From positions 1 to 40,484 of IMG/VR virus record IMGVR_UViG_3300036820_000331: a stretch of DNA of 40,484 nt. The stretch is one strand, 5' to 3'. The notes beneath the pieces are model-generated. The model was not told the origin of the DNA and ran no database searches. It saw only the letters and a program-made list of their open reading frames with translations. Within the stretch, counting starts at the first letter, position 1, and every line of letters begins with the position of its first letter. A program made the translations under genes and the position numbers. Positions 697 through 32,748 of the stretch are shown in pieces. The DNA comes from a virus.

Positions 697-2391
697 GTGG
701 TCACATTCGTCGTGCCGCCGGATAACCGCAGCGTGGGCAGCGGCAACCCTCCGCAGGACGTGAACGAGCTCAGCGACATGGAGGGCCTGCTCGCCGCGAT
801 CCTCGCCGCGCAGGCAGGCTTCCCGGGTTCGACCACCGTCCCGGCAGACAACGCCACCAACGTGACCGCCCTGCAGACGCTGATCACCGGCACGTTCATG
901 GGGCCCGGCCTGCCGCCCATCGGCGGCGACGGCGACGACACCACGAACATCCAGAACCTGCTCAACCTCGCCGGGGTAGCACCCTTGCAGGTAGGCACCT
1001 TCAACTACTCGGCATCGCTGACGGTCCCGACAGCCGGCGGCCTGACCTGCCCGCTGGCTACCGAATCGTTCGGCGACCCCAGCGCCGACTACGGCGTCGG
1101 CGGCCTGGCGCTGCAGGGCGCGATCCTCAAGGCCACGGACACGTTCGCTGACGCGGACGCCGCGACCGGCACCATCATCATGACCTCGCCGGAGGGTGTG
1201 CAGGGCGGCGGCCAGCGGCTGCAGGGCATCTCCCTGGACCTGTCGAACACGCCGGACGGCAACAACCTGCACGGCATCCTCATCCAGGACAACACCGCCT
1301 GCGTGACCCTGAAGGGTGTCGTCGTCTACGGCGGCGGCGATGCGCAGCTGGGCGGCGACTGCCTGCACGCTGTGGCCGCCACATACTCCCCGCCGGACCT
1401 GCTCACCCTTGACCATTGCCATTTCGTCGGCGGCACCGGCGGCGTCACCATGAGCGGCGTCGCCGACTCCTACATCTACATGACCGAGTCGACCGGCAAC
1501 AAGAACTACGCGTGGAACATCATCAACGGGAACAACACGCGATTCGACTGCTGCAAAGGAGAGACCAGTACTGCCGGGCCGGGCTGGCTGCTGACCGCTA
1601 ACACCGGGTTCACCGGCATCGTCCACTTCTCGAATTGCACGTCACAGGGCAACTACGAGGACGGCTGGAAGTTCACCGGAGCCGGGACCGGCATTTACAG
1701 TCTGGGCAACTGCTCAGACGACGGGTCCGGCACGGACGGCGTCCACTCGGGCATGGACGTGACCAGCTTCTCCGGCACGGTCAAGGCGCCCGGGTTCATC
1801 ACCCGCGTGGCCGGCGGCAGCCCGGTCTACGGCGTGTCGATGACGGACAGCAACTCGGTGGACCTGCGGGCCGGCAACATCACCGGGGCGACGTCGCCGT
1901 ATTACAACGGCGGCGGGAACACGTCGTTTACCGGAACCGCGGCGCCTGGCGAGTTCCTGTGCACGCCCACGTCGTACACCACGACCAACACCTTCACCAC
2001 GGACAGCACCACCTACGCGGCGGTGTCGAGCGCCAATGTCAATACCGGCAACTTCACTGCCCCGCCGTCCGGTTATGTCTGGGTCGAGGCGTCGTTCGTG
2101 GTCACCGAGGCGACCGGGGCGACGGTGATCGGGTTCGCCCTCGCCGCGCACGGCGGCGTGACGCCGCTGCTCGGCGACGCGTGGCAGTGCACGCTGGCCA
2201 ATCCTTCCGTCAACGAGATTACGACCGCGAAGTTCCTGGTGCCAGTGACGCCCGGCTCCAGCTACAACCTGGACCTGCTGTTCGCGTGCACCACCAACAA
2301 CCTCACCATCAAGTCGCAGGCGTTCACTGGCGCGACCCTGACCGCCACCACCGAAGGCGGTCCGATCCTGATGACCGTCCGGGCGGTCTGA
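697..2391 (+). CDS. Phage tailspike/tail fibre protein, likely right-handed beta-helix
   Basis: This 564-residue protein has a short N-terminal segment that resembles phage baseplate or fibre anchors, then a long middle (about 95-400) rich in Gly, Asn, Thr and Ser with short repeating strands, as in pectate-lyase-like beta-helix spikes. The last ~145 residues duplicate the C-terminal domain of the preceding gene. GTG at 697 is chosen because an in-frame TGA lies at 688-690 and a GGAGAAGGAAGG run precedes it. The stop overlaps the next start (TGATG at 2389-2393). It probably contacts the host surface; whether it has enzyme activity cannot be judged from sequence alone. Confidence 0.7.
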   Translation: MVTFVVPPDNRSVGSGNPPQDVNELSDMEGLLAAILAAQAGFPGSTTVPADNATNVTALQTLITGTFMGPGLPPIGGDGDDTTNIQNLLNLAGVAPLQVGTFNYSASLTVPTAGGLTCPLATESFGDPSADYGVGGLALQGAILKATDTFADADAATGTIIMTSPEGVQGGGQRLQGISLDLSNTPDGNNLHGILIQDNTACVTLKGVVVYGGGDAQLGGDCLHAVAATYSPPDLLTLDHCHFVGGTGGVTMSGVADSYIYMTESTGNKNYAWNIINGNNTRFDCCKGETSTAGPGWLLTANTGFTGIVHFSNCTSQGNYEDGWKFTGAGTGIYSLGNCSDDGSGTDGVHSGMDVTSFSGTVKAPGFITRVAGGSPVYGVSMTDSNSVDLRAGNITGATSPYYNGGGNTSFTGTAAPGEFLCTPTSYTTTNTFTTDSTTYAAVSSANVNTGNFTAPPSGYVWVEASFVVTEATGATVIGFALAAHGGVTPLLGDAWQCTLANPSVNEITTAKFLVPVTPGSSYNLDLLFACTTNNLTIKSQAFTGATLTATTEGGPILMTVRAV

Positions 2392-5300
2392 TGAGCGTCT
2401 ACACCAGCGAGTACGAGTCCACTTACGGCGGGCCGCCGTTCCCGGAGTCCCCGCTCGATGTCGGCGTGGAACTCGACCTCGCCGGCGACTGGACCGATGT
2501 CACCACGTACGCGCTGCAGCGTGAGGGCACATCGCCGCCGATAACCATTCAGCGTGGCCGCCCGAGCGAGACCAGCCAGGCCACCCCGTCCTCGGCGACC
2601 TTCCAGCTCAACAACCGCAACGGGAACTTCTCGCCCAGAAACCCTGCCGGCGAGTACTACGGGCAGCTCGCCGTGCGCAACAACCCGCTGCGCATCTCCG
2701 TGCCGGACGCCACCACCTACCTGCGGTTCGCCGACGACAGCCAGTCCTGGTGCTCCTGCCCCGACTCCTCTGCGCTGCAGCTGACCGCAGACTTCGACCT
2801 GCGGCTCGACATGTGGCTGGACGACTGGCAGCCCTGCACCCTCGCCGGGAAGTGGGGCGGCTCGGACACGCTGTGGGCGTGGTGCCTGACCCTCAACGGC
2901 GACGGCACGGTCACCCTGACCTGGTACGACGGCACCGACGTGTGGGCCGCCCAGTCCACCGTCCCCCTGCCCTACCTCGGCCGGATCATGGTCCGCGCGA
3001 CGCTCGCCACCCTCGGCGCCGGCCTGGTGACGTTCTACACCGCCCCGGACATGGCCGGCGCGCAAACCGAACTCGGTGACGTCATCACCGTCGAGGGCGC
3101 CTCCGGAGCGCAGAACGCCGCCACCCAGGCCGTGCAAGTGGGTTATGTGGACGGGTTCCTCGGCCAGTCCTCGCCATCGGGCAGCTCCGGGTGCCTCGGC
3201 AAGGTCTACGAACTCCAGCTGTACAACTCCAGCGGCACACTCGTCGCCGGCCCCCAGTTCTACAACGCCACCGCCGGGGCCTCGAGCTTCACCGACGCCG
3301 AGGGCAACACGTGGACCGTGGAAGGTTCGGCCACCTTGTCGGCGCGGTCTTTCCGGGCGCACCTGGAATGCTCGTCCCTCCCGCAGCAGTGGGACGAGAC
3401 CGGCACCGACGTGTGGACCCCGGTCGGCGCCAGCGGCATCCTGCGGCGCCTGCAGCAGGGCAACTCGCCGATCTGGTCGGTGATGCGCCGCGGCGTCACG
3501 TCCACGATCGCCTCGGTCTGGGGCGTGCTGGCCTACTGGCCGTGCGAGGACTTCCAGGGCAGCACGTCCATCGCTTCCGGGCTGGCCAATGGCTCGCCGA
3601 TGCTGTTCTCCGGCGCCCCCGCCTTCCAGGGCACCGCCGGGTCCCTGTCCGCCGACAGCGTGTTCGCGTGCTCGGCGCAGCTCGCGCAGCCCAGCAGCTC
3701 AACGTGGTCGTTCTCCATCCCGCGGCACACCCTGCAGACCGTCGGCGACACGGTCTACTTCCTGCTTGACGTCGACTCGGGCGGCATCTCCGCGGACTGC
3801 ACCCTGCTGGCCCTGAACTACGCCAGCGGCCAGCAGATCACCATCACCTATGCGACAGCCACGGACGGGAGCCTGGGCGTGTCCGGGCCCGGGATCGGCA
3901 TCGACGGGCCCACCAACGTCAACGGCGCGGCGCTGTGGTGCTCGTTCCAGAGCAACGCCGACGGCATCACGCTGAACGTGCTGCCCGTGGGCGAGACGGT
4001 TCCCACCGCCTACACCGGGGACACCGGCATCAACCGGACCGTCCTGTCCGGCACGGTCAACCCCGGCGGGGCGAACCTGGCCGGCACCGAGGCCGGGCAC
4101 CTGTGGGCCAGCGCCGCCGGGCCGTCCATCGAGGGCTACGCGGACCTGCTGAACGCCTACAACGGCGAGACTGCCGCGGCCCGGTTCTCCCGGCTGTGCG
4201 GCGAGAACTCGATCACCGCCCGCATCTACGGCTTCCCCGACGTCTCCGCGATCATGGGCCCGCAGGAGATCGACACCCTCGGCAACGTGCTGCAAAGCGT
4301 GGAGGATGCTGACAGAGGGCAGATCTACGAGCCGGCGGAGACCCTGGGCCTGGGCTACCGCACCGTGCACTCGCTGTGCGCCCAGAGCCCGGCCATCACC
4401 CTGGACTACACCCAGGGCGTGTTCGGCGGCGACGGGTCACAGGGACTCGTGCCCACCGATGATGACCAGTTCACGCAGAACGACGTCACCCTGAGCAGGA
4501 ATAACGGCAGCAGTTACCAGTACCAGGTCACCTCCGGGCCCATGTCGATCCAGGAGCCGCCCAATGGTGCCGGGGACTACGCCACCAGCCTGACCGTCTA
4601 CGTCCAGTCGGACGCCCAGCTGCCGTACATCGCCTCCTGGATGGCGTCGGTGGGGACGTGCGATGAGGAACGCTACCCGAGCGTCCCGCTCAACCTCACC
4701 CGGCCGCAGCTCGCCAGCCTGTTCTACGCCATCCAGGACGTCCGGATCGGCGACTACGTGCAGATCCTCAGCCCGCCCTCGTGGCTGCCGCCGGGTGACA
4801 TCAGCCAGCTGGCCTACGGGGTAACGGAGCAACTCGGCGGCTACTTCTGGTCCCTGGCGTGGAACGCGGTGCCTGAGACCCCCTACGAGGTGGCGATCGC
4901 CGGAACGGACGCCAGCGACTCGGCGCACGCTGACACTGAGGGTTCCGAGCTCGCGGGCTCCTATGACGCCACGGCCACATCCCTGTCGGTGGAAACCACC
5001 GAGGGGCCCATCTGGACCACCGACGGCGGCAGCGGAGCCGGCCAGCAGTCCATCGTGCCGCTCTACTCCTACCCGCCATCGGATTTCTGGGCCGACGTCA
5101 CGGCAAACGCCCCCACGATGGCCATGATCGTCTGCAACGTCGACAACGGCCCGGGCACGGAGACCGAATCCAACTTCGCGGCCGTCTTCGAGGCCGCCGC
5201 GGCGGCGGGGATCACCTGCCTGGGCTACGTGCCCACCGGTTACGGCGCCGACACCATCGCCTCGATCGAGGCGCAGATCGACCTGTGGGAAACCTACTAC

Positions 5301-5900
5301 GGGATCGTCAGCATCAACTTTGACACGGTCAGCCCCGACGAGGCGTACCTGTCCTACTACGAGGAACTGGCCGGCTACGTCCACGGCCGCGGCGGCATCG
5401 TGGTGCTCAACCCCGGCGCGATCCCGGCCGAGGGCATGATGAGCATCGGCGCCGACGTGGTCTGCGTGTGCGAGGACAGCCAGGCCAACTTCGCCACCGA
5501 CGCCGCGGCGGCCCCGTCGTGGCTGTTTGACTACCCGGCCACCAGCATTGCCGTGACCTGCAACCAGTGCTCCACCGACGCCGAGATGGTCACCGTCGTG
5601 GGCCTGAGCCAGTCCGCGTTCAACGCGCACTACTGCTGGGTCACCGCCGACGCGATCTACGGCGCCGAGCCGTCCTACTTCGCCGATGAGGTGACCGAGC
5701 TCGGCTACGCGCCCGGCGGCGGCGGCGACTTCCCGTTCGACATCCTCATCGGCGGCGAGCAGATCACCGTGAACGACATCACCGGGGACGCCTCGCCGCA
5801 GACGTTTTCAGTAATTAGGTCGGTGAACGGTGTCTCCAAGTCCCAGGCCGAGGGCGCCGCCGTGGCCCTGTTCCATGCGCCAATCGCGGCGCTGAGCTAG
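2391..5900 (+). CDS. Large minor tail protein with LamG-like and spherulin-4-like domains
   Basis: The protein has 1169 residues from ATG at 2391, which overlaps the upstream stop by one base. The frame continues upstream inside the previous gene, but that part is a shadow reading. Residues ~1-110 resemble the N-terminus of actinophage minor tail proteins (duplex of beta strands with a QLNNRNGNFSP-type motif). Residues ~110-330 look like a LamG/concanavalin-like beta sandwich. Residues ~885-1105 match the spherulation-specific family 4 (GH135-like) pattern: VPLYSYP start, a VDNGPG turn, GYVPTGYG, a FDT segment with D978, and CED with E1028. In characterised relatives the barrel carries an Asp-Glu pair; here the second residue is Thr, so activity is uncertain. 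It probably binds or trims host surface glycans at the tail tip. Confidence 0.75.
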   Translation: MSVYTSEYESTYGGPPFPESPLDVGVELDLAGDWTDVTTYALQREGTSPPITIQRGRPSETSQATPSSATFQLNNRNGNFSPRNPAGEYYGQLAVRNNPLRISVPDATTYLRFADDSQSWCSCPDSSALQLTADFDLRLDMWLDDWQPCTLAGKWGGSDTLWAWCLTLNGDGTVTLTWYDGTDVWAAQSTVPLPYLGRIMVRATLATLGAGLVTFYTAPDMAGAQTELGDVITVEGASGAQNAATQAVQVGYVDGFLGQSSPSGSSGCLGKVYELQLYNSSGTLVAGPQFYNATAGASSFTDAEGNTWTVEGSATLSARSFRAHLECSSLPQQWDETGTDVWTPVGASGILRRLQQGNSPIWSVMRRGVTSTIASVWGVLAYWPCEDFQGSTSIASGLANGSPMLFSGAPAFQGTAGSLSADSVFACSAQLAQPSSSTWSFSIPRHTLQTVGDTVYFLLDVDSGGISADCTLLALNYASGQQITITYATATDGSLGVSGPGIGIDGPTNVNGAALWCSFQSNADGITLNVLPVGETVPTAYTGDTGINRTVLSGTVNPGGANLAGTEAGHLWASAAGPSIEGYADLLNAYNGETAAARFSRLCGENSITARIYGFPDVSAIMGPQEIDTLGNVLQSVEDADRGQIYEPAETLGLGYRTVHSLCAQSPAITLDYTQGVFGGDGSQGLVPTDDDQFTQNDVTLSRNNGSSYQYQVTSGPMSIQEPPNGAGDYATSLTVYVQSDAQLPYIASWMASVGTCDEERYPSVPLNLTRPQLASLFYAIQDVRIGDYVQILSPPSWLPPGDISQLAYGVTEQLGGYFWSLAWNAVPETPYEVAIAGTDASDSAHADTEGSELAGSYDATATSLSVETTEGPIWTTDGGSGAGQQSIVPLYSYPPSDFWADVTANAPTMAMIVCNVDNGPGTETESNFAAVFEAAAAAGITCLGYVPTGYGADTIASIEAQIDLWETYYGIVSINFDTVSPDEAYLSYYEELAGYVHGRGGIVVLNPGAIPAEGMMSIGADVVCVCEDSQANFATDAAAAPSWLFDYPATSIAVTCNQCSTDAEMVTVVGLSQSAFNAHYCWVTADAIYGAEPSYFADEVTELGYAPGGGGDFPFDILIGGEQITVNDITGDASPQTFSVIRSVNGVSKSQAEGAAVALFHAPIAALS

Positions 5901-6498: not shown

Positions 6499-6843
6499 GT
6501 GGACGCGGGCTCGGTCACCGCAGCAACAGCACTGTCCGCCGCGGTCATCACCGGCATCGGCTGGGCGGGCCGGCACGCGTGGCGTTTCATTCGCCGCGTC
6601 GTCCACTTTCTGGACGACTACACCGGGCAGCCGGAGCACGACGGGCTGCCCGCCAAGCCCGGCCTGATGGCACGGGTGTCGACCATGGAGGATTCGCTCG
6701 CGCACGTTGTGGCGGAGACCAGCCCCAACCACGGGCGTTCCATACGCGACATCGTGCTGCGCACCGCAGCCGACGTCACCGAAATCAAGCAGGAGCAGTT
6801 CCGCGTACGAGGCGAACTCGAAAGGCTGAAGCAGCATGGCTAA
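6499..6843 (+). CDS. Small phage membrane-associated protein with C-terminal coiled coil
   Basis: This 114-residue protein starts at GTG 6499 behind AAGGGGGG. An N-terminal hydrophobic stretch (about residues 6-24) could be one membrane segment, followed by a basic patch and a charged C-terminal region (about 75-112) with heptad-like spacing. Its stop overlaps the next start by eight bases. Small proteins of this layout commonly sit between tail and lysin genes in actinophages. It could be a holin-associated or membrane-anchor protein, but no diagnostic family motif is visible. Confidence 0.6.
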   Translation: MDAGSVTAATALSAAVITGIGWAGRHAWRFIRRVVHFLDDYTGQPEHDGLPAKPGLMARVSTMEDSLAHVVAETSPNHGRSIRDIVLRTAADVTEIKQEQFRVRGELERLKQHG

Positions 6844-8665: not shown

Positions 8666-8920
8666 CTACCGGTCCGGTACCGCCGCAAGCGCGGAGTGGA
8701 GCTGCCCGGACGTGAGGCCGCCGGGCGGGAACGCCTGCCACATCTCCCACGCTGCGACGTGCCTCGGGAAGCCTGCGCGCAGCCGGGCGCGGTTGCCCGG
8801 GTCGGCCTTCTCGATCAGCCGCAGCAGGTCCCCGGTGAACGAGGTCACATCGCCGCCGAGGGCGAGGCACAGTTCGTGCCACGTCTTAACCGGGTGGTCG
8901 CCGGGGAGGACGCTTTTCAC
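8666..8920 (-). CDS. Uncharacterised small protein, end of the leftward transfer operon
   Basis: The gene encodes 84 residues from GTG 8920, which overlaps the upstream stop in a GTGA junction (8917-8920). The sequence is mixed helical with Leu- and Ala-rich segments (DLLRLIEKADPGNRARLRAG), no Cys motif and no membrane segment. The TAG at 8666-8668 ends just before the RHH-operon promoter. Tight coupling to the DUF2637 gene suggests a role in the same module. No family is recognised. Confidence 0.6.
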   Translation of the reverse strand: MKSVLPGDHPVKTWHELCLALGGDVTSFTGDLLRLIEKADPGNRARLRAGFPRHVAAWEMWQAFPPGGLTSGQLHSALAAVPDR

Positions 8921-10080
8921 CGGACCGCCTCCTGCGTTCCGCTGTCGCCGTACGCCTGCCGCAGAAGTTCGCCCGCGGTGTCGCGGGACATGCGGACCCG
9001 CAGCCGCGCGGCGAGCTGCAGGGCGGGCAGCCGCTTGCCGTCGTTCTCGCGCTCGTAACGCTCGATCGCTGCCTTCACCCGGTTGGCGAGAACCTTCGGG
9101 TTGATGTCCTTGGTCTCGGGCCAGTCGCTGCCTTTGGCGCTGCCCTGGCGGGTGCGGCGCGGCGTGCCGCGGCGGGTGCCGTCTGTACTGCCTTCTGCCG
9201 TGCCCTGAGCGGTGCCTCCAGCAGGTGCCGCGATGGCTGCCTTCTCGCGCCTCAGCCGTGCTGCCGCCCGCTCGGGAGCGGCAAGCGCGTCAGTGACCCA
9301 CTGCTCCGCGGGCTCGGCGATGGCCGGCCGGCCGTAGGTGGCTGCCTCGCACGCCTGGGCAACCTCGGCTGGCAGCGTGCCGTTCGTCAGATGGTGACGC
9401 AGCACCGCGGGCGCGTGCCGCTTCCACCGCCGGCCAAGGCTGGCGCGGGCCACGTCGATGGCCAGCAGCCGCGCCTCTTCCCTCGCCACGGCCACCGGGT
9501 ACGAGGTGATGTTGTGCACCACCATCCGCTTGCGCATGCCCAGCGTCCGCACCGGCTCGGCCACCCAGCGGGCCAGCGGGATGCCGTCCTGCCGCTCGGC
9601 GCGCTTGCGGCGCAGCTTGCGCCAGCGGGTCAGCTCGAGGAACGCGATCCACGCGCAGGGAGCGGACACGTGCAGGATGATCCCCAGCCAGTCACGCGCC
9701 GGCGCACCGTGGGCGTTGACATAGATGGTGAACACGCCCGCAGCCCACGCCAGCGCCCGGGGCACCAGATCGGACCGGCCGTCATCGATCGCCTTGCGGG
9801 CCTCGATGGTGAACCCGAGGAACAGGGCGTCGAACAGCAGCGGGTAGAGCAGCGGGTTGCCCGGCATGTGCTGGGCAACCGCCTCCGCCCTGATCGTCTG
9901 GAAGCTGACCGAGAAGCCGATGCCGGCGATCAGCAGCAGCAGCGGGTTCTCGGTGAACAGGCTCCATGCGGCACCCAGCCGCGCGTGCTTCGGCGTAGCC
10001 ATGCCGTCCATGGTGACCTCTCGCTCGGCGGGGGGCGGGGAACTTGCCCCGTCTGGGTGTTGCGTGGGACTGGTGTGCAT
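8917..10080 (-). CDS. DUF2637-like membrane protein of actinobacterial conjugative elements
   Basis: ATG 10080 (one-base overlap with the upstream stop) gives 387 residues; a longer frame exists but reads through the upstream gene. After ~35 polar residues come hydrophobic segments (about 45-60, 75-92, 105-122, 130-145), with the ENPLLLLIAGIGFSVSF and HAPARDWL-type features seen in DUF2637 proteins of Streptomyces plasmids and AICEs. The C-terminal half is soluble: a basic region, a Gly/Thr/Arg-rich linker (about 290-330) and a helical end with a LQLAARLRVRMSRDTAGELLRQ segment that looks like an HTH. This links a membrane domain to a possible DNA-binding end. Such proteins are often encoded beside Tra/Spd transfer genes; molecular function is not established. 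Confidence 0.6.
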   Translation of the reverse strand: MHTSPTQHPDGASSPPPAEREVTMDGMATPKHARLGAAWSLFTENPLLLLIAGIGFSVSFQTIRAEAVAQHMPGNPLLYPLLFDALFLGFTIEARKAIDDGRSDLVPRALAWAAGVFTIYVNAHGAPARDWLGIILHVSAPCAWIAFLELTRWRKLRRKRAERQDGIPLARWVAEPVRTLGMRKRMVVHNITSYPVAVAREEARLLAIDVARASLGRRWKRHAPAVLRHHLTNGTLPAEVAQACEAATYGRPAIAEPAEQWVTDALAAPERAAARLRREKAAIAAPAGGTAQGTAEGSTDGTRRGTPRRTRQGSAKGSDWPETKDINPKVLANRVKAAIERYERENDGKRLPALQLAARLRVRMSRDTAGELLRQAYGDSGTQEAVR

Positions 10081-10772
10081 CAGTGCACCATCCCGGCGAG
10101 ATGCCAGCCGAGCCACCCGAGCCCCAGCAGCAGCGACGGTGCGACCACGCAGTTCTCCCGCCAGGTGCCGGTAACGAAGGCGACCGGGCGCGGCAGGCCG
10201 TAGTGGCGCAGCGTCCAGGGCCACGCCAGCGGGCAGCCTTCCACCGTCAGCATGTCGCCGAGAATGTGCACGAGGCAGCCCAGGCCGCAGGCGAGCGGGA
10301 TCAGGATCATGTGCCAGCCGGTCACAGCTGCTGCGGAAGCGGCACCAAGGGCGGCTATGTCAGCCACGTGGCCATGAACGCGGAACGCCCGCAGTCCCGC
10401 AGCGATGGCCAGGGCCAGGAACAGGGCGAGAAGCACGAGCGCGGCGTCCAGCCACCACAGCGAGTCCCATGGATGCGCGCCGAACAGCGTGGCCAGGGCT
10501 GCGTAGCCCGTGAACACAGCTACGCCCAGCAAAGAGTGAGTGCCATGCCGGTGGCCGCCGCTGACCTTCTCCACGTACCAGGCGAAGCCCTCGGACAGAA
10601 AGCCCAGCGAACGGGCCGCGCATGAGCCCACACAGTCCAGGTCGGGCAGGACTGCGAAGCAGGCCGTGAAGCCAGTCAGCGCGAGCGCGGGAACCAGCGA
10701 CAGGTGCAGCCCGAACTCGGCCACGGCCAGCCCGGTTGCCGCTCCGCTCAGAGCATGATCGCGGCCGAGCAT
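10080..10772 (-). CDS. DUF457/YdjM-type membrane-bound metal-dependent hydrolase-like protein
   Basis: The chosen start is ATG 10772 (GGAGGG upstream), giving 230 residues beginning MLGRDHALSG; the longer reading frame overlaps other genes. The family signature is clear: an N-terminal H-x6-8-G segment, DLD after the first helices, the HRHGTHSL motif, and HILGD followed by CPLAWPW near the end, with about five membrane helices between. These His and Asp residues suggest a metal site. Members are common in phages, plasmids and host chromosomes, and their substrate is generally unknown. The stop overlaps the DUF2637 start. Confidence 0.8.
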   Translation of the reverse strand: MLGRDHALSGAATGLAVAEFGLHLSLVPALALTGFTACFAVLPDLDCVGSCAARSLGFLSEGFAWYVEKVSGGHRHGTHSLLGVAVFTGYAALATLFGAHPWDSLWWLDAALVLLALFLALAIAAGLRAFRVHGHVADIAALGAASAAAVTGWHMILIPLACGLGCLVHILGDMLTVEGCPLAWPWTLRHYGLPRPVAFVTGTWRENCVVAPSLLLGLGWLGWHLAGMVH

Positions 10773-10773
10773 G

Positions 10774-11022
10774 TCAGGATGCCCTCCACGCTGGCTCGCC
10801 GTCGCCAGCCAGACGGTCGGCGTGCTCGTCTCCGCACCAGCACTCGCCGGCGTCGTGGTTACGGGGCTCGGGGCATTCCCCCGAGCGCTGCGCAGGCGCG
10901 GGTTCAGTGCCAGGCATTCTGCCGGTGACGCGGGCCCAGGCAAGGCAGCCGAGCAGGAACAGGACGGCGGCGGCGGCCAGGCAGCCCCAGGCGGCGAACC
11001 AGGCCTCGGCGGTGGGATTCAT
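10774..11022 (-). CDS. Small membrane protein with Cys-rich tail
   Basis: ATG 11022 overlaps the upstream stop in an ATGA junction (11019-11022). The 82-residue product has one hydrophobic helix (about residues 9-29), then a polar tail containing a C-P-E...C-W-C-G-D-E-H segment that could bind a metal ion. Its stop lies one base before the DUF457 start. It belongs to the same operon as the GIY-YIG gene. No family is recognised. Confidence 0.6.
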   Translation of the reverse strand: MNPTAEAWFAAWGCLAAAAVLFLLGCLAWARVTGRMPGTEPAPAQRSGECPEPRNHDAGECWCGDEHADRLAGDGEPAWRAS

Positions 11023-11633
11023 GAGGCACGCTCCGATGGTCGCCTCTGCTGGCAGTAAACGGCGGTGGCTCTCGCCACGTCCTGGCCCGGTACCGGGCGG
11101 TAGTAGCCGCGGCCGGGGTGAACGACGGCGCCCAGCTGAACTAGGGCAGTGAGGAGTTCGTAGACCAAGGTCTTGCACAGACCCGACTCCTCCAGCAGGC
11201 GCTTGGGCGTGATTCCTGTCTCGGCAGCGTTGATAAGCGCTTGCGCGAACAGTCCGAAGCGGTCGGTCACTGGCGGCTTCGGCGCGCTAGGCCTGGGGGG
11301 TGCCAGCGGACGGCGAACCGGAAGGGGCACGGCCCGCAGCGGGGCGTTCTTGTGCGCGAGGTTGTACTTCGGCCGCTCCACGAAGATCGCGCGGCGCTCG
11401 GCCGCAAGAGCCCGGACCTCGTCGGGGAACCACTCCAGCGTGATACCCCGGACCTCCAGGAACCAGATCTTCTGGGCGTGCTCCGCCAGCCGACGCCCCA
11501 AGTTCCCGGTGGTACCGACATATAGCAGTTGCCCCCCTTCGCTGAAGCAGCGGTAGACGGCCTGCGAATCGGCATCGAACACCGGCGTCGGCGGGGGTTG
11601 CCCTGCGTTAGTCGCCGGACTCAGTGCCCTCAT
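11019..11633 (-). CDS. GIY-YIG nuclease-like protein with C-terminal winged helix
   Basis: The protein has 204 residues. Residues ~24-95 fit a GIY-YIG domain: AVYRCF (Y27), LLYVGTTGNLGRRLAEH (Y38, G40, R47), E79 as the metal ligand position, and N91 in KYNLAHK. All residues usually needed for cleavage appear present. A Pro/Arg-rich linker (~100-122) leads to a winged-helix domain (~125-192). That domain is visibly homologous to the end of the FtsK/TraB-like protein encoded upstream: TGITPKRLLEESG here against QGISPKQLKNESG there, and GRGYYRPVP against SRGLYRPMP. The two proteins may therefore bind the same DNA site. The intergenic GGACAA cluster lies directly before this gene. Confidence 0.75.
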   Translation of the reverse strand: MRALSPATNAGQPPPTPVFDADSQAVYRCFSEGGQLLYVGTTGNLGRRLAEHAQKIWFLEVRGITLEWFPDEVRALAAERRAIFVERPKYNLAHKNAPLRAVPLPVRRPLAPPRPSAPKPPVTDRFGLFAQALINAAETGITPKRLLEESGLCKTLVYELLTALVQLGAVVHPGRGYYRPVPGQDVARATAVYCQQRRPSERAS

Positions 11634-11655
11634 TCATCACTCTCCGTGATTGTTG

Positions 11656-11779
11656 GCCGAGGACAAGGCCTTGTCCTCGGCGCTATCCACGCATTGTCCC
11701 TGGATATCCCTGGACAATGCCTCTCGCGCGCCTACGTACGTACAGGCCCCCACGGGCGCCCCTGCTTGTGCATGGACAA
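11656..11779. repeat. Cluster of inverted repeats built on GGACAA/TTGTCC, candidate transfer or regulatory locus
   Basis: A perfect 26-base palindrome occupies 11656-11681 and contains GGACAA and TTGTCC. A second inverted repeat pairs GCATTGTCC (11691-11699) with GGACAATGC (11712-11720) around a GGATATCC centre. A fifth GGACAA lies at 11774-11779, and a TACGTACGTA palindrome at 11733-11742. So five copies of one hexamer occur within about 120 bases between the translocase and GIY-YIG genes. In Streptomyces plasmids the TraB translocase recognises short repeats at the clt locus. This cluster is a candidate equivalent, or an operator; terminator function is also possible. Confidence 0.6.
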
Positions 11780-11794
11780 ACGCGCGCACAATCG

Positions 11795-13948
11795 TCACCC
11801 TGCGTTAACGGTCTCGCGGGCCTCGGCGAACAGCCGCGCGGCCTCGGAGTCAATGGCGGCCATGGCCCGGCGCAGGTCAGCGTCCGGCATCGGCCGGTAC
11901 AGCCCGCGGCTGATCTGGGTGACCGCCTGCATCTTGATCAGTTCCCCGAGACGGCTGTGAACCCAGCTGTTACTGCGCCCAGACTCGTTCTTGAGCTGCT
12001 TGGGGGAGATGCCCTGGTCAGGGGCGGACTCCAGGGCGATGATGAACCGCTCGATCTCGGTGCGGATGATGCGCCCAAGATCGCTGCGAGGCTGGATGGC
12101 AGGCTCCATTACTCCCGAGTAACTAGCGGCCAGTTCCTCGTTCATCCGCGCCGCGGCCTCGGCCGGGCTGCCAAGGCCGGGCTCGGAAGCGACAGGGACC
12201 GCCGCGGCGCGGGCCTGCTCGGCGATGGCCGACACGGCGGCGTGCGCCGAAGCGGGGGACTCGGCGGCCAGGATCGCCGCGTACTGCTGGTACTGCGGCG
12301 AGATGGCGTGGAACGCCGGGTCCAGACGCGACCAGCGGCTGTCCCACCACTGCTGCCAGGTGACGCCGGGGATGGGGGAGGGGTCGCTGCCGCACCACAG
12401 CCGCAGCGGCCGCCGGTCGCCGAGCAGGCGCGCGTTCTGTGCCCCGATCTTCCTCAGCAGCGAGTGCGGCATGTGCGGGGAGCGGATCTGCTGGACCGGT
12501 GCCTTCTCGCCGTCCTGGGTGTAGCAGGTGCCCTGCTCGTCCAGCTTGGAGGCGTCCAGCCTGGCGTACTGGGAGATGCAGTACTGGCCGTGCCGCGCCT
12601 CGGCGACCCGGTAACACGTCCGCCACGGCAGGTTGCCCCGGATCTGCTCCGACCCGACCGAGGTTTCGAGGCTGCCGTGCTGGGTGTAGACCCAGGTGTA
12701 GATCTCGACGCTGTTGCCCTGGCTGGCGATCGTGCCCAGCATCGTGCGGCACTCGGGATCCCCGGCCGCATCCTCGGTGGCCGTGAGGTCGTGCGTCTCG
12801 TCGATCTTCAGGAACAGGGCCGGGGTGTCCTCGTCGGCGTAGCCGTGCTGGTCGCCCGTGTACCAGTTCTTCTGCCGGGCCGCGTTCTCGGCGACAAGCA
12901 TCCGCTCGGTCATTCGCGCTTCGTCTATGTCCGTCACCACGTAGTCAACGGCGCCGGCCTCGAGGAGCGGGCGCGCGGACCGGCCGCCCTTCAGGTCGAT
13001 CAGGATCACCCGGGCGTCCATGCAGCCGGACAGCTGGGCCACGGCCACCAGCAGGTCATTCGACTTCCCGGACTGGGTCACGCCGTTGGTGAAACGGTTG
13101 CCCTTCGCCGACTTCATGACCCACTCGCCGGTCTCGCTCACGCCGAACTCCAGCGGCTCGTGCACCGACTTCGGCGCCAGAGCCAGGTCGAACTTGACGA
13201 TCTCGGCGAGCGGGTTGCGGCGCTTGAAGTACAGGTCGAACCAGGACGGGTGACCCTTGACGGTCTCGACCCGGATCATGCCGATGTCGGCCAGCGCTTC
13301 CCGGTCGGGGTGAGTGTCGCCTGCGGTCTCGATCAGGTGCATGGCCTGGTCGAAATGCTGCTTCGAGTGCCGCCCGGGGATGCCCTTGACGCGGACCTTG
13401 GTGGTCACGCCCATCGGCCACACGTCGGAGACGTGCGAACCGCCCAGGGACCAGTTCCAGCAGTGCGACTGCCACCACTCGTCCCACCGGCCGACCAGCT
13501 TCTGCCGGCGGCGGTGCCCGCGGGGCCGCTTGTGGCGGTACCAGGCGATGCCCCAGCCCAGGAGGAACACGATGAGTGTGCCAGTGGCCCAGACGTTGAA
13601 CGGCGTGACCTTCGCGGCCAGGGCGAGCCATGCGGACAGCAGGACGGCCGAGACCACGGCGAAGACCTGCTCGGGGCGCCGGTCCCACTTGTGCGGCGCG
13701 ACGAAGGACACGGCGAGGATGGCGCAGGCACCCGCGATGATGACGTACGGCGCCCAGTGCAGCAGGTGCAGGCCGAGGCCGGCCACCCACAGCACCGGCA
13801 GCAGTACCAGGGGCGCGGTCCAGTGACGCCGGGTCCAGATCCACCGGTAGGCAGGGACCTTCGGGTCAAGGTCCCGGTCGGGCTGCCACGGCGGCCGGGT
13901 GGCCACCAGGGGCGCCGCCGGACGGGGGACAAGTTCCTTGCCTGGCAT
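11795..13948 (-). CDS. FtsK/SpoIIIE-type DNA translocase (TraB-like conjugation ATPase)
   Basis: The protein has 717 residues from ATG 13948 behind GGAGGT. Four hydrophobic segments (about 46-60, 68-84, 95-112, 120-137) anchor it in the membrane. The motor domain has Walker A at 289-296 (GVTQSGKS) and Walker B ending in D383-E384 (ALFLKIDETHDL). The last ~75 residues form a winged helix with GISPKQLKNESG and SRGLYRPMP, in the place of the FtsK gamma or TraB clt-binding domain. In actinobacteria such proteins pump double-stranded DNA between cells without a relaxase. Chromosome-segregating FtsK is much longer. The surrounding small membrane proteins, VirB2-like protein, DUF2637 protein and upstream KorSA-like regulator support conjugation over a purely phage role. 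Confidence 0.85.
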   Translation of the reverse strand: MPGKELVPRPAAPLVATRPPWQPDRDLDPKVPAYRWIWTRRHWTAPLVLLPVLWVAGLGLHLLHWAPYVIIAGACAILAVSFVAPHKWDRRPEQVFAVVSAVLLSAWLALAAKVTPFNVWATGTLIVFLLGWGIAWYRHKRPRGHRRRQKLVGRWDEWWQSHCWNWSLGGSHVSDVWPMGVTTKVRVKGIPGRHSKQHFDQAMHLIETAGDTHPDREALADIGMIRVETVKGHPSWFDLYFKRRNPLAEIVKFDLALAPKSVHEPLEFGVSETGEWVMKSAKGNRFTNGVTQSGKSNDLLVAVAQLSGCMDARVILIDLKGGRSARPLLEAGAVDYVVTDIDEARMTERMLVAENAARQKNWYTGDQHGYADEDTPALFLKIDETHDLTATEDAAGDPECRTMLGTIASQGNSVEIYTWVYTQHGSLETSVGSEQIRGNLPWRTCYRVAEARHGQYCISQYARLDASKLDEQGTCYTQDGEKAPVQQIRSPHMPHSLLRKIGAQNARLLGDRRPLRLWCGSDPSPIPGVTWQQWWDSRWSRLDPAFHAISPQYQQYAAILAAESPASAHAAVSAIAEQARAAAVPVASEPGLGSPAEAAARMNEELAASYSGVMEPAIQPRSDLGRIIRTEIERFIIALESAPDQGISPKQLKNESGRSNSWVHSRLGELIKMQAVTQISRGLYRPMPDADLRRAMAAIDSEAARLFAEARETVNAG

Positions 13949-14349: not shown

Positions 14350-15183
14350 TCAGTGGCCCCCGCTCTCCGACAGTTCGGCGGTGTTGGGGATCTGCCTGCC
14401 GGTGCGGACGTGATCGCCAACGGAGCCGTTGATCAGCGAGTGGAGGTTGGCGTCGGACTCACTCAGCGCCTGCGCCGTGGCCCGCATGTGCGTGCCGGCC
14501 TTGGACAGCGGCTCGGTGATCTCCGGGCCGTAGTGGGCCTCAGCGAGGGTGCGGGCCAGCATCTGGGCCATGTCGGCGAACCGCAGCGCGCCTTCGTGAG
14601 CGGCCTTGATGGCGCCGTGCTTGGCGAAGATGCCGCCCGACGCTGCGCTGTTGTGAACCTGGTTGACGCCTTCAACCAGCTTCTCTGCGCTGCCTGACGA
14701 AGTGGTGCTGGCCATGGCCGTCTGCCTTCCGTTGGATTGCCCGTTCGTTGCCGGTGATGCAGGTGCAGGAGGTGCGGGGGGTTTGAGGGTCACCGCCGCC
14801 GGCGCCGGCGGCGGGGAAGTGCCGCCGGCACCCTGGGCCTTCGGGGCTGGCCACATCGCGCCGCGGAGCTTGCGCACACCCCTGCCGGTGGCCCGGGCGG
14901 CGCGGATCGTCTTGCCGGGCGGGGGAGACGTCCCGTGCTCGCGGTGGTGGCGCATCTGCTCGAGCCAGTTGGCCGCCTGGGCCTGCGCCCAGATCTTGCG
15001 GACATCATCCTTGCCGGGTTTGCGCAGGCTCCGCCGGCTGCCTCTCGGTGCGCGGTGCACTGCCCTCGGCCGGCGCGCCGCAGCCGGGGAAGGTGCACCA
15101 GCGCGGCGGACGGTCCCGATGGCGTGCAGCAGAATCGCGGCGCAGACCAGCAGGATCGCGACGTAGAAGATGTCATGTCCCAT
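14350..15183 (-). CDS. Transfer-operon protein with one membrane helix and a Pro/Ala-rich linker
   Basis: This 277-residue protein has an N-terminal hydrophobic helix (about 5-22), a very basic stretch (about 25-60), a Pro/Ala/Thr-rich linker (about 120-150) and a C-terminal helical domain (about 165-270) of SAEKLVEGVNQVHNS / FADMAQMLARTLAEAHYG character. The layout resembles structural partners of conjugation ATPases, with a cytoplasmic helical domain tethered to the membrane. Spacing to both neighbours is only 2-3 bases. Function is inferred from context. Confidence 0.6.
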   Translation of the reverse strand: MGHDIFYVAILLVCAAILLHAIGTVRRAGAPSPAAARRPRAVHRAPRGSRRSLRKPGKDDVRKIWAQAQAANWLEQMRHHREHGTSPPPGKTIRAARATGRGVRKLRGAMWPAPKAQGAGGTSPPPAPAAVTLKPPAPPAPASPATNGQSNGRQTAMASTTSSGSAEKLVEGVNQVHNSAASGGIFAKHGAIKAAHEGALRFADMAQMLARTLAEAHYGPEITEPLSKAGTHMRATAQALSESDANLHSLINGSVGDHVRTGRQIPNTAELSESGGH

Positions 15184-17041: not shown

Positions 17042-17076
17042 TGCGGCCTGCCCTCCCAGACTCCTGCCTTGCTGTG

Positions 17077-20323: not shown

Positions 20324-21241
20324 ATGGCTCAGGGTACGTGCAGCGTGGAAGGCTGCGATAGGGGAACCAAGGCGCGCGGCTGGTGCGGGATGCACTACAA
20401 CCGCTGGCTAAGAAGCGGTGACCCCGGCGTGGCCGGGCGCGGGCGCAGTCTTCGGGGTCAGCGATCCACGTGCAGCGTTGAGGGCTGCGACGGCGAACAT
20501 GTAGCCTGCGGCCTCTGCGGCAAGCATTATCAGCGATTGAAGGCCGACCCCAAGCCGCCACCCAAGCCGAGGGCCAACGCTCGCGGTACGTGCCAGATCG
20601 ACGGATGCGATGAGTCGCACAGGGCCCAAGGCCGATGCGGCCGGCACTACCAGCAGTGGAAGCTTGAGCGCACGGGACTGCCCTCATGTGCGGTGGACGA
20701 CTGCACCAGCCCCGTCTACGTACGTGGCTGGTGCCTGAAGCACTACACCCGCTGGCAAAGAACCGGCGATCCGCTCCTGACAGCACGAGACTTGCGCCCG
20801 GTGCGATCCAAGGCAGTCCAGATTCCCCGGCACAACCGGGGCATGAAGAAGACCGCCGAGTACAGGATCTGGAACGGCATGAAGAGCCGGTGCCTCAACC
20901 CCAATCGCAAAGACTACCCGCGCTACGGCGGCAGGGGGGTTACTGTCTGCGAGCGGTGGCTGAGGTTTGAGAACTTCTATGCGGACATGGGCCCGCGTCC
21001 GAGTCCCAAACACTCCATTGACCGCATCGACAACGATGGGAACTATGAGCCCGGGAACTGCAAGTGGGCTACTCTCGCCGAGCAACGCAGCCACATAACC
21101 TGGCGTGTCTCACGCTTCACAGTCGAACAGGTTTCAGAGATGGCTGGGCGCAGAGCTCAAGGTGAAACCCTCCGCGCCATAGGCGAGGCCTTCGGCTGCT
21201 CGGGTGCCCACGTCTCAAGGCTGATCAAGACTGCCGCTTAG
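20324..21241 (+). CDS. HNH/AP2-type endonuclease with four tandem zinc fingers and a C-terminal HTH
   Basis: The protein has 305 residues. Four identical-spacing fingers C-x4-C-x9-C-x2-H-Y begin at C6, C50, C90 and C122. Residues ~178-258 carry a phage HNH-like block: YRIWNGMKSRC, YGGRGVTVCERW, F.NFYADMG, then SIDRIDNDGNYEPGNCKWAT. Residues ~264-302 form a resolvase-type HTH (FTVEQVSEMAGRRAQGETLRAIGEAFG...VSRLI). The combination suggests a free-standing homing-type nuclease or a site-specific DNA-binding nuclease. It has its own promoter, and its 3' end overlaps the convergent GntR gene by 17 bases, as for an inserted mobile gene. Confidence 0.8.
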   Translation: MAQGTCSVEGCDRGTKARGWCGMHYNRWLRSGDPGVAGRGRSLRGQRSTCSVEGCDGEHVACGLCGKHYQRLKADPKPPPKPRANARGTCQIDGCDESHRAQGRCGRHYQQWKLERTGLPSCAVDDCTSPVYVRGWCLKHYTRWQRTGDPLLTARDLRPVRSKAVQIPRHNRGMKKTAEYRIWNGMKSRCLNPNRKDYPRYGGRGVTVCERWLRFENFYADMGPRPSPKHSIDRIDNDGNYEPGNCKWATLAEQRSHITWRVSRFTVEQVSEMAGRRAQGETLRAIGEAFGCSGAHVSRLIKTAA

Positions 21242-28372: not shown

Positions 28373-28962
28373 ACGGCCCGATCGGCTGGCCGCCCCTGCG
28401 CCACCGCCCCCGGCCACCGCGAGGCCGCCACCGCGCCCTTGAAACCGTCCCGGAGTCCGACATGCCACCCATCCCAGCCCCGCCGCAGCACAGCACCGCA
28501 CCACAGCCATCCCTGCCCCCGCCGCCAGTCCCGGCCGAGCCCGAGAAGACCGTCCAGTGCGGATGGTGCAAAGTCATGGGCCCGCTGTCGCAGATCCCCG
28601 GCAGCGGCGGGTGGTACCGGTGCGCCAAGCTCTGGGAGTGCATCCCGCGGCAGCTGGCCGGTGGCCTGCCCGCACCGCTGTCCCCGGCAGGCACGCCGCC
28701 GCTGGAGCCTCTTCCCGTCGCTGAGCCTGAACCCCCCGTAGTCCTGCCACCCGCACAAGAGGCAGCGATGGAGCGGTTCAACGAGGCCACCGACGCACAG
28801 GACGCAGCCGAAGGCAAAGACCGCAGCAAGGACGGGGTGACGCCTGAGGCAGACGCGGAGGCTCCCGCAGACACCACGGAACCCGCTCCCGTCGCTGCCG
28901 AAGACGCGGCTGAGGCTGCCGCGCCGACTGCTGAGACCCTGGACGGCGGCGAGGGCGAGTGA
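28369..28962 (+). CDS. Pro/Ala-rich protein with Cys motif, upstream of exonuclease
   Basis: ATG 28369 (ATGA) gives 197 residues. The N-terminal ~60 residues are Pro-rich; residues ~62-90 hold CGWCKVMG and GGWYRCAKLWEC, a possible zinc site; the last ~70 are acidic and Ala-rich, disordered in character. It could be a scaffold or ssDNA-linked partner of the recombination proteins, but no family is recognised. Confidence 0.55.
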   Translation: MNGPIGWPPLRHRPRPPRGRHRALETVPESDMPPIPAPPQHSTAPQPSLPPPPVPAEPEKTVQCGWCKVMGPLSQIPGSGGWYRCAKLWECIPRQLAGGLPAPLSPAGTPPLEPLPVAEPEPPVVLPPAQEAAMERFNEATDAQDAAEGKDRSKDGVTPEADAEAPADTTEPAPVAAEDAAEAAAPTAETLDGGEGE

Positions 28963-30014
28963 ACGGCGTCCTGATTCCGACCGCCAGCGAGGCCGAGTGG
29001 CAGCACGCCCGCCGCAAGGGCGTGACCGCCAGCGAAATAGCCGTGGTGATGGGCCTGTCGCCCTACGACTCGCCTTTCTCTCTGTATCACCGCAAGCTCG
29101 GCAACCTGCCTGACCAGGAAGACAGCATGGCCCTGGCCATCGGCCGCCACTTCGAGGACTTCGTCGCCGGCCGGTTTGCCGAGCAGCACGCCGAGTTCCA
29201 CGTCAGTGGCGATGGCCGCGCGCTGTACGCACACCCGTACCGGCTCTGGCAGCTGGCAACCCCGGACCGGATCGTCAACGATGTCCGCCTCGACTTCCTT
29301 AACGGCGTCGACGATGCGTTCGAGGAGTACGAGCCGTACGCAGTGCTGGAGTGCAAGACCGACGGCGGGTTCGACGGCTGGGGCGACGACGGCACCGACG
29401 AAATCCCCGTCCACTACCGCTGCCAGGTGCTGTGGCAGATGGACGTCATGGGCGTGCAGGCCGCGTTCGTGGCCTGCCTGTTCATGAACCGGCGGCAGCT
29501 GCGCGTTTACCCGATCACGCTGGACGACGCGGCGCACGCCGACCTGAAGCTGATGCGCGAGGAAGCCGAGACGTTCCTCGGCCGCCTCCGCGAGGGCACC
29601 GAGCCCGGCGTCGACTGGCGCCCGGCCACCCGCCAGGCGCTCAACCAGCTGCACCCGGAGCTTGAGGACCGCGAGGTCATCATCCCGCGGCACCTCGGCG
29701 TGGCTTACCAGGCCGCCGTGCGCCGGCACGAGCTGGCCGAGCGGCGCAAGGACGAACTGGCCAGCCGGGTGCTGGCCGAGGTCGGCGACGGCCGGTACGC
29801 GATCGAGGCGGAGACCGGCCGCAAGGTCGCCACCCGCTCGGTCAGCAAGCCCAAGCGCATCGACACGAAGAAGTTGCGCGCCGAGCACCCCGATATCGCC
29901 GCGGCGTGCACCAGGTCCCCGAAGCCCGAAGTCCGGCTGATCCCCGCGAGGCACGCAAGCACCGCCCGGGTGATCCGCCCCGCCCTGACAGCAGCATCCA
30001 AGGAGCAGTCATGA
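28959..30014 (+). CDS. YqaJ-family (lambda-exonuclease-like) viral recombinase nuclease
   Basis: GTG 28959 gives 351 residues. The domain signatures are visible: GVTASEIAVVMGLSPYDSPFSLY (21-43), E66 in HFEDF, D103 in TPDRI, E131-x-K133 in LECKT and Q156. These form the metal site of YqaJ/RecE-type 5'-3' exonucleases, which resect double-strand ends to give 3' overhangs for an annealing protein. recT lies next to it, split off only by an IS. The C-terminal ~100 residues are basic and helical. It would act in phage recombination. Confidence 0.85.
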   Translation: MNGVLIPTASEAEWQHARRKGVTASEIAVVMGLSPYDSPFSLYHRKLGNLPDQEDSMALAIGRHFEDFVAGRFAEQHAEFHVSGDGRALYAHPYRLWQLATPDRIVNDVRLDFLNGVDDAFEEYEPYAVLECKTDGGFDGWGDDGTDEIPVHYRCQVLWQMDVMGVQAAFVACLFMNRRQLRVYPITLDDAAHADLKLMREEAETFLGRLREGTEPGVDWRPATRQALNQLHPELEDREVIIPRHLGVAYQAAVRRHELAERRKDELASRVLAEVGDGRYAIEAETGRKVATRSVSKPKRIDTKKLRAEHPDIAAACTRSPKPEVRLIPARHASTARVIRPALTAASKEQS

Positions 30015-30031
30015 CACTCCCTATGTCAACC

Positions 30032-31285
30032 TCAGGCCGCGGTTTGCTTCGCTGGCTGTGCGGCGAGGGCGGCGGCGGCTCCGTGCTGGGCGGGGTCGTA
30101 GGGGACGCCGTCGAGCCAGCAGCGGTAGATGACGCGGACCCAGGCGCGGGCCAGGATGCGGGTGGCGTGTGGGTGGTCCTTGCCGGCAGCGCGGGCGTTG
30201 TCGTAGATCTGGGCGGCCCAGGGGCTGGCGTGGCGGCTGTTGTCGGCGAAGGTGGTGATGGCGACGCGGAACCGCTTGTTGCAGGCCCACCGGAAGTGGA
30301 CGGAGCGGTGCTTGCCGGATTCCTTGGTGACCGGGGTGACGCCGGCGAGGGCGGCGACGGAGTCGGGGTGCTCGTAGGCTGGTCGGCAATCGCCCCACTC
30401 GGCGAGCACCTGGGCGGCGTTGACCTGACCCGACCTTGGCAGCGACGTGAAGATCGCCCCGTCCGGGTGCTCTCCGAGGTGGGCGGCGACGGACCGGTCG
30501 AGGTTCTTCACCGACGCGTTGAGTGCCTGCAGGACGGCGACGGCGGCGAGCACGGCGTCGCGCAGGGCTTCGCTGAGCGATTCCAGGCCGGTGCCGGCCG
30601 GGGCGGCGCGCAGCCGGGCGAGCAGCTCGGCGGCGGTGCGGCGGCCGGAGTAGCCGTGCTTGAGGCAGAACGCGGCCATCCGCTTCTCGCCGAGGTGGAC
30701 GGCGGCGGCCGGGGTCGGGTAGCGGGTCAGGAACTCCAGGCTGATCGGCGACTCGACGTCGGCGAAGATGGCCCTGGCGCCGGGCCAGTGCGCGTCCAGC
30801 AGCGCCGACAGCTGATTGGTCGCCGCCACCCGCATCTCGACGATGTCGCCGCGGGTCCGCACGACGGTGCGCAGGGCCAGGGTCTGGTCGGAGTACGGCT
30901 CGGCGACCCGCAGCTGGCCGGCCCGCACCCGCAGGTAGTCGGCGATGAACGCGGCGTCGGCGGTGTCGGACTTGGCGCCCGACGGTACCTCGCCCTCGCG
31001 CCAGGTCTTGATCGCGTTCGGCTTGACCGGCACGACCGGGTGCCCTGCCTCCAGCAGCAGGTCCACCAGGCGGCCGTCCGGCCGCTCGATCGCGACCGGC
31101 ATGTCGCCGGCCGGGCCGAAGCGGGCCAGCCGGCGCAGCAGCGCGGCGATCCCGTCAGCGGAATGCTCGATGGTGAACTGGGCGGTGATCTTCCCGGCCG
31201 CATCCAGCACGCACACGGCATGGGCCTCGGCGGCCCAGTCGATCCCGGTGAAGAACAGCGCATCAGGCAGCGCAAACGCCGGCAT
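30032..31285 (-). CDS. IS110-family DEDD transposase/recombinase
   Basis: ATG 31285 with AAGGAG about five bases upstream gives 417 residues; a longer frame upstream lacks support. The N-terminal RuvC-like part has FTGIDWAAEAHAV (first Asp), an ERPDG segment and KSDTADAAFIADYLR (last acidic pair), the usual DEDD tetrad layout. The C-terminal Transposase_20-type domain has SLPRSGQVNAAQVLAEWGD and SVAALAGVTPVTKESGKHRSVHFRWACNKR, containing the Ser region that carries the nucleophile in this family. It inserts by RNA-guided strand exchange in studied relatives. Confidence 0.9.
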   Translation of the reverse strand: MPAFALPDALFFTGIDWAAEAHAVCVLDAAGKITAQFTIEHSADGIAALLRRLARFGPAGDMPVAIERPDGRLVDLLLEAGHPVVPVKPNAIKTWREGEVPSGAKSDTADAAFIADYLRVRAGQLRVAEPYSDQTLALRTVVRTRGDIVEMRVAATNQLSALLDAHWPGARAIFADVESPISLEFLTRYPTPAAAVHLGEKRMAAFCLKHGYSGRRTAAELLARLRAAPAGTGLESLSEALRDAVLAAVAVLQALNASVKNLDRSVAAHLGEHPDGAIFTSLPRSGQVNAAQVLAEWGDCRPAYEHPDSVAALAGVTPVTKESGKHRSVHFRWACNKRFRVAITTFADNSRHASPWAAQIYDNARAAGKDHPHATRILARAWVRVIYRCWLDGVPYDPAQHGAAAALAAQPAKQTAA

Positions 31286-31440
31286 GAAAGCTCCTTGCGA
31301 TGGCAGCGACGACCCGGCGAGGAGGACAGCTACCGGGTGGTCACTAACCGGCGCTCTGCGGCGCGTCTCCCTGTTGCCAGTCCGTGTCCCCGGAAGGGCC
31401 GGGGGCGGTGGTGTCATGCTGGCCGTTTTCCGGCTACCGC
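31286..31440 (-). ncRNA. Candidate bridge RNA region of the IS110 element
   Basis: The non-coding end upstream of the transposase can form a hairpin on the minus strand: GCCAG/CTGGC (31376-31380 and 31419-31423) around an inner stem CCCCGG/CCGGGG (31388-31393 and 31399-31404). The internal loop between them holds GTGTCATG (31411-31418), the exact reverse complement of CATGACAC at the left insertion flank (30010-30017). It also holds AGTCCGT (31379-31385), which matches AGACCGT on the right flank (31444-31450) at six of seven bases. This is what a target-binding loop would show. Full folding was not computed. Confidence 0.6.
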
Positions 31441-31518
31441 ACTAGACCGTCACCCCGGCCCCCGCCGAGTCCCAACAACGAGCACCGTAACGGTGCCCGC
31501 ACTAAGGATGGTGCCCTA

Positions 31519-32748
31519 GTGACCGCCCAGACCGTTTCCCAGGCCGTCGAGAAGCGCGACAGCGGGCCCGTCGCGATCATGTGGACCCGCAAGCGCCACT
31601 TCGATGCCGTGCTGCCCGGGTCGGTGGACGTTGAGGCGTTCCTCGGCACGGCCGCCGGCGCCCTGTACGCGTCGGACGTGCCGGGCAAGAAGCTCACGCT
31701 GATGGGCTGCGCGCAGGCCAACCCCGACAGTCTGATCGTCTCGCTGATGGAATGCGCGGCGCTCGGCCACATGCCCGGCACCGACGAGTACTACCTGACC
31801 CCCCGCATGGACCACGGCCGGCCGAAAGTCCTCGGCATCGAGGGCTACCGCGGCGTGATCGAGCGCATGTACCGCTCCGGCGCGGTCGCGAAGGTCGTCG
31901 TCCGCGAGGTGTGCGAGCGCGACTACTTCGACTACCGCGAGGGCGAGATGGACATCCCTGTCCACCGGTTCGCCCAGGGCACCACCGGGGCCGCGTTCTT
32001 CTCCTCCGCCCAGTCCCGCGGGCAGATGGTCGGCGGCTACTCCTACGCCCAGCTCACCAACGGCTCGTTCTCCCGTGTCGTCATCCTCACCCGCGACGAC
32101 ATCTTCGCTGCGCGCGACTCCGGCGGCTACAAGCCCGACGACAGCTTCAGCCCGTGGAACCGTCTCGATGGCGGCGCGGAGCACCCCGAGTTCACGGGCC
32201 GGAGCATGTGGTGGAAGACACTCGCCAAGCGGCTCGAGCCGTGGGTGCCGACCAGCCGCGAGTACCGGCGCGAGCAGTTGCGCGCATCGGCCGCCGCAGC
32301 CGAGCAGGCGCGCCCGCGGGCCGGGCTGGGCAGCCTTCCCGACGCCCCGGCTCTGCCCAGCGGCCACAGCGACATCGTTGAGGCAGAGATTGTGGAGCAC
32401 CCGGCCGTGGCCGCCCAGGCCGGGCAGGCGCCCGCTGAGACCTCGGCGTCGGCTACCGAGCAGGGAACCCCGGACGGCTCGCCGGCGAGCCCCGGGCCGG
32501 CTGCATCCGGTATAGCGACCGGGAGGCTGGAGCAGCTCCTCCAGGAGGTCCCGCTGGGGACTGCGGCCGACCGCGCCGAGTTCATCGCCTGGGTGACCGG
32601 GCATCCGGCCGATGAGGAACTCACCCCGGCCGATGTCAAGAAGCTGACCGCGCGGCTGGACGGCGCGCTCAAGGCGGTCAAGGGCAACGGCGAGCAGGCC
32701 GCCTCGGCGCTGTGGGAGCAGCACAAGCAGGCCACGGGCGCCAAGTGA
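31519..32748 (+). CDS. recT: RecT-family single-strand annealing protein
   Basis: GTG 31519 has AAGGA at 31504-31508 and a small GCACCG-TAA-CGGTGC hairpin (31482-31496) before it; the product is 409 residues. The core (about 1-250) shows the RecT pattern: LTLMGCAQANPDSLIVSLMECAALGHMPG, YYLTPRMDHGRPKVLGIEGYRGVIERMYRSG, VCERDYFDY and SMWWKTLAKRLEPWVP. The C-terminal ~150 residues are a disordered Ala/Pro/Glu-rich tail, then a helical end. RecT coats single strands and pairs complementary DNA after YqaJ resection. The upstream coupling with the exonuclease is now broken by the IS. Confidence 0.9.
   Translation: MTAQTVSQAVEKRDSGPVAIMWTRKRHFDAVLPGSVDVEAFLGTAAGALYASDVPGKKLTLMGCAQANPDSLIVSLMECAALGHMPGTDEYYLTPRMDHGRPKVLGIEGYRGVIERMYRSGAVAKVVVREVCERDYFDYREGEMDIPVHRFAQGTTGAAFFSSAQSRGQMVGGYSYAQLTNGSFSRVVILTRDDIFAARDSGGYKPDDSFSPWNRLDGGAEHPEFTGRSMWWKTLAKRLEPWVPTSREYRREQLRASAAAAEQARPRAGLGSLPDAPALPSGHSDIVEAEIVEHPAVAAQAGQAPAETSASATEQGTPDGSPASPGPAASGIATGRLEQLLQEVPLGTAADRAEFIAWVTGHPADEELTPADVKKLTARLDGALKAVKGNGEQAASALWEQHKQATGAK

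Follow-up and report, generated by a model that had tools for sequence, protein, structure and literature searches.

In pWTY27, a Streptomyces theta plasmid, deletion analysis and footprinting placed the clt in 16 bp inside the tra gene together with the 159 bp that follow it; its TGACACC repeats and inverted repeats are bound by the Tra protein, and the locus is required in cis (PMC3583192). The TraB winged helix of pSVH1 reads repeated 8-bp motifs, as cited in PMC3583192, and for pSAM2 no clt motif had been described (PMC9513070). Here, we analyzed a 40,484-bp stretch of DNA (the window; about 69% GC), which is classed as a virus record in IMG/VR and looks like a phage-like actinobacterial mobile element. 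Our results indicate that the gap between its traB gene and a GIY-YIG nuclease-like gene is very probably a clt, at which the conjugation DNA pump TraB would recognize TTGTCC (the TRS) and move the element between cells (Table 1). Since both genes run in the same direction, this region follows the 3' end of traB and precedes the 5' end of the GIY-YIG gene, and its left edge takes in the ribosome-binding region of the latter.

Table 1. Features of the putative clt and its surroundings in the window.
Feature	Position	Strand	Description
Putative clt	11634..11794	- (traB sense)	161-bp gap directly 3' of traB
Repeat (TRS) copy 1	11774..11779	+	GGACAA; TTGTCC in traB sense; sole copy between traB and the core
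Repeat (TRS) copy 2	11712..11717	+	Second dyad, right arm
Repeat (TRS) copy 3	11694..11699	-	Second dyad, left arm
Repeat (TRS) copy 4	11671..11676	-	Perfect palindrome, right arm
Repeat (TRS) copy 5	11661..11666	+	Perfect palindrome, left arm
Perfect 26-bp palindrome	11656..11681	.	GCCGAGGACAAGGCCTTGTCCTCGGC; folds as RNA hairpin
Imperfect 30-bp palindrome	11691..11720	.	9-bp arms GCATTGTCC/GGACAATGC; 13/15 bp complementary when extended to the centre
CG-alternating core	11720..11741	-	ACGTACGTAGGCGCGCGAGAGG (traB sense); conserved, matched in all eight relatives
traB	11795..13948	-	717-aa product; hydrophobic stretches at the N-terminus, FtsK/SpoIIIE-like motor with GVTQSGKS, winged helix at the C-terminus
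GIY-YIG nuclease-like gene	11019..11633	-	204 aa; TraB-type C-terminal winged helix
DUF2637 gene	8917..10224	-	Transfer module; pWTY27 also has DUF2637 genes in its transfer region
Conserved gene upstream of traB	14350..15183	-	Same-place counterpart in L002, L003, L005 and L006

The original prediction, that five copies of GGACAA/TTGTCC are arranged as inverted repeats between the two genes, was confirmed, and the perfect 26-base palindrome, the second 9-base inverted repeat and the lone copy were all found as described. The order of the hexamers is opposite in the two dyads, GGACAA..TTGTCC in the perfect palindrome and TTGTCC..GGACAA in the second. It had also been proposed that the idea would fail if the hexamer were equally frequent elsewhere, which is not the case: five copies fall within 119 bp (11661-11779), compared with nine in the rest of the window. 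The clustering is local, because the window total of 14 matches that of shuffled sequences (mean 12.7), with no window-wide enrichment. In 1000 dinucleotide shuffles of the region, the maximum hexamer count never rose as high as the local one, and as high a maximum occurred in 0.75% of the other 170-bp stretches of the window. The locus thereby holds what is expected of a clt, several copies of a 5-9 bp repeat in direct and/or inverted orientation.

Eight related elements from IMG/VR, with TraB proteins from 55% down to 26% identical, were compared with the window. Each of them carries a repeat cluster directly after the traB stop codon, built from a private repeat (GTTCGC, CTGTCC, GTCCAC, AGTCCA, TGTCCA, CCTCCA, TTCCAC, or GTCTCA), and in L004 the copies include tandem direct repeats. 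The clusters were significant against shuffles in all eight (p <= 0.021 each), but those of L065 and L009 stood out only slightly when set against other stretches of the same loci (10% and 15%, respectively). In the cross-comparison the copy-number matrix was near diagonal, each repeat being abundant in its own element alone with limited cross-talk among TCCA-type repeats; the hexamers were picked after viewing the sequences, so this matrix is an illustration and not a blind test. The maximum-hexamer statistic and the leave-one-out ranking of the core described below served as unbiased tests. Thus, as in clt loci, the repeat differs between elements while its location is kept. The original prediction had made conservation of the region with the gene pair a point of refutation; the hexamer is not conserved, as it differs in each relative, but the architecture after traB is, and in most relatives no GIY-YIG gene lies directly beside the locus. 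Co-variation of the repeat sequence with the TraB winged helix is only weakly supported by a Mantel test (r 0.22, p 0.044), in which the plasmid group accounted for most of the signal. Protein-pattern scans of genome contigs and a search of the phage collection found no relatives, and no such array was present in plasmids from Streptomyces and Kitasatospora whose FtsK-like genes are more distant (L015-L020, L055, and L195).

The repeats flank, on both sides, an alternating CG core that was absent from the original prediction. In the window and in the related elements, this core has a conserved sequence and lies between the traB-side and the distal repeat copies; most copies before it read like TTGTCC, and most of the later ones are inverted. 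When a weight matrix was built from eight elements, its best match in the ninth was this site in 9 of 9 cases, ranking first of 16,798 to 80,926 positions per locus (first of 80,926 in the window). The core alone is not diagnostic, because most hits of collection scans with it fell in coding sequence or simple repeats, and none of 120 loci had a TraB-like gene; nor was it seen in several plasmid loci that carry FtsK-like genes. The core may deform or melt easily, or it may serve a second conserved factor as its site. A CG pattern, TACGCGCGYGCGCGCGAR, also occurs in many phage genes (IMG/VR loci L076, L082, L105, L125, and others), where it encodes YARARE; judged from the reading frame, these genes apparently code for terminase small subunits.

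The product of traB matches an FtsK/SpoIIIE-like PHROG (E 1.4e-14), and no Pfam model matched it. Its hydrophobic N-terminus and its Walker A motif were read directly from the sequence, and its C-terminal winged helix comes from a structure prediction with a mean pLDDT of 89.8; a Foldseek search with this domain gave generic winged-helix matches and nothing more specific. The protein has the TraB-type make-up of putative N-terminal membrane segments, a RecA/FtsK motor that carries Walker motifs, and a winged helix at its C-terminus, and the locus adjoins the gene of such an FtsK-like TraB, as a clt should. The neighboring 204-aa protein contains a GIY-YIG domain (E 1e-6), and its winged helix is homologous to that of TraB according to profile comparisons (hhalign 98.5% over 69 columns; E 9e-20 with a TraB-winged-helix model). 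Its full structure model was unusable (pLDDT 34). In the set scanned, GIY-YIG and a TraB-type winged helix were combined only in this protein and its L004 counterpart (E 4.5e-9), both encoded directly after the repeat locus. A different GIY-YIG fusion, seemingly with a GntR-type winged helix at the C-terminus (by eye), is encoded at L070 (the record of L065, around 83347). The region had been put forward as a clt-like site shared by the two winged-helix domains. The clt-like part is well supported by the eight relatives and by the footprinted pWTY27 clt; sharing is unproven, because the recognition helix of the GIY-YIG protein (CKTLVYELL) differs from that of TraB (SNSWVHSRL). TraB conjugation is thought to move uncut double-stranded DNA. 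A GIY-YIG nuclease with a copy of the TraB DNA-reading domain might cut or nick at or near the clt, which we regard as unlikely; if true, TraB conjugation in some elements would involve DNA processing directed to the clt, and the CG core could be the substrate.

Assignment as a clt is carried by observed features, namely the position, the repeats, the conserved core, the private nature of the repeats, and the domain make-up of TraB. By analogy with known systems, we infer TraB binding, hexamer loading, and pumping: the C-terminal winged helix of TraB would read the TTGTCC copies that flank the CG-rich core, TraB multimers would load at the repeats, and the FtsK-like hexamer would then pump the element into the recipient cell. 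Each pump would select its own DNA, because each element has its own repeat.

Other explanations of the dyads were considered. Folded into RNA hairpins after traB and ahead of the GIY-YIG gene, they could limit read-through as a terminator or attenuator. The predicted RNA structure contains both hairpins (-75.9 kcal/mol, z -4.3), and actinobacterial terminators often lack a U-tract. However, no GC stem-loop with a T-tract was found in the region, and hairpin strength is not conserved (z -0.4 in L004 and -1.5 in L007), whereas the repeats and the core are. A terminator would also leave the lone copy, the core, and the tandem direct repeats of L004 unexplained, in line with the earlier view that a simple terminator does not account for the hexamer density. 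This role is therefore quite unlikely, and the hairpins could simply result from binding sites being arranged as dyads.

An operator had also been suggested, and the inverted repeats do lie just upstream of the GIY-YIG start codon, with genes for a GntR regulator (at 17074), an HTH protein (at 17537), and a WhiB protein (at 16015) nearby. This suggestion received no positive support. GGACAA is absent between 15740 and 24881, and because no copy is near the GntR, HTH, or WhiB promoters, an operator for the GntR or HTH regulator is improbable; in the relatives the genes that follow the array are unrelated, yet traB always precedes it. We consider an operator for any of these proteins, or for the GIY-YIG/winged-helix protein acting on its own promoter, very unlikely. 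Less probable still is a replication origin or partition site composed of DnaA boxes, iterons, or a centromere for the ParB-like protein encoded at 24256. The Streptomyces DnaA box is TTGTCCACA, and TTGTCC resembles its first six bases. DnaA boxes are nevertheless unlikely, because no copy in the window is followed by ACA and the relatives use unrelated repeats such as GTTCGC, CCTCCA, and TTCCAC, a change that a conserved host DnaA would not follow; the location goes with traB and has no such tie with rep or par genes. A search for a DnaA box cluster found no nonamers like TTGTCCACA, the copies reading TTGTCCATG, TTGTCCAGG, TTGTCCCTG, and TTGTCCTCG.

The wider gene content combines conjugation and phage functions. 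The product of the conserved gene upstream of traB is closest to those of L002 and L003, with a common stretch around EKLVEGVNQ (compared by eye). A large phage-type protein (1635-5900; phrog_5313, E 1e-181) with a Spherulin4 domain at its end is followed by a holin-like gene (6499-6843), and RecE- and RecT-type genes are located at 28959-32748; because of these genes, the element looks like a phage with a TraB conjugation module. Related or tail-type genes are also present in the records behind L006, L007, and L065. A transposase-like gene on the minus strand (30032-31417; phrog_2199, E 2e-68), possibly an insertion sequence, lies between the exonuclease and RecT genes, and the protein encoded at 20324-21241 has matches to several HNH endonuclease families in two distinct segments. 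No integrase was identified in the window. The results place a TraB-type conjugation module on elements with phage tail genes. The anatomy of private repeats and a shared CG core straight after traB would also permit clt prediction in uncultured actinobacterial elements, and would make TraB specificity testable via winged-helix swaps.

Like actinomycete integrative and conjugative elements (AICEs) such as pSAM2, the window has a TraB-type transfer gene with GntR-type and other small regulators nearby, but unlike them it carries phage tail, holin, and RecE/RecT-type genes and has no identified integrase. The clt/TRS regions of pSVH1, pIJ101, and pJV1 also consist of multiple short, element-specific repeats, with sequences other than those of the window, and the pIJ101 clt, unlike this one, is close to korB; a core common to several elements is not described for these three plasmids in the accessible parts of the sources (PMC3583192; PMC4170104). 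More generally, no description of a conserved clt core was found in open-licence papers, a provisional result. The pWTY27 clt resembles the locus in lying directly 3' of an FtsK-like tra gene whose product ends in a winged-helix region, in its length of about 160 bp (a 159-bp part vs the 161-bp gap), and in its repeated motif (7-bp in pWTY27) with inverted repeats. It differs in its repeat (TGACACC/GGTGTCA), in lacking a GIY-YIG neighbor, and in its proven binding and cis requirement; inspection of its sequence revealed a repeat layout like that of the window, but only CCCCTAGGCAGG between the arrays instead of a CG-alternating core. The pRL1 and Amycolatopsis NBC_01286 plasmids carry CTGACA repeats and a similar CG core (CTTAACGCGTACGCGAG and CTCTACGCGTGCGCGCGCG, respectively) after an FtsK-like gene. 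Taken together, nine related elements, including the window, have private repeats around a shared CG core at the putative clt.
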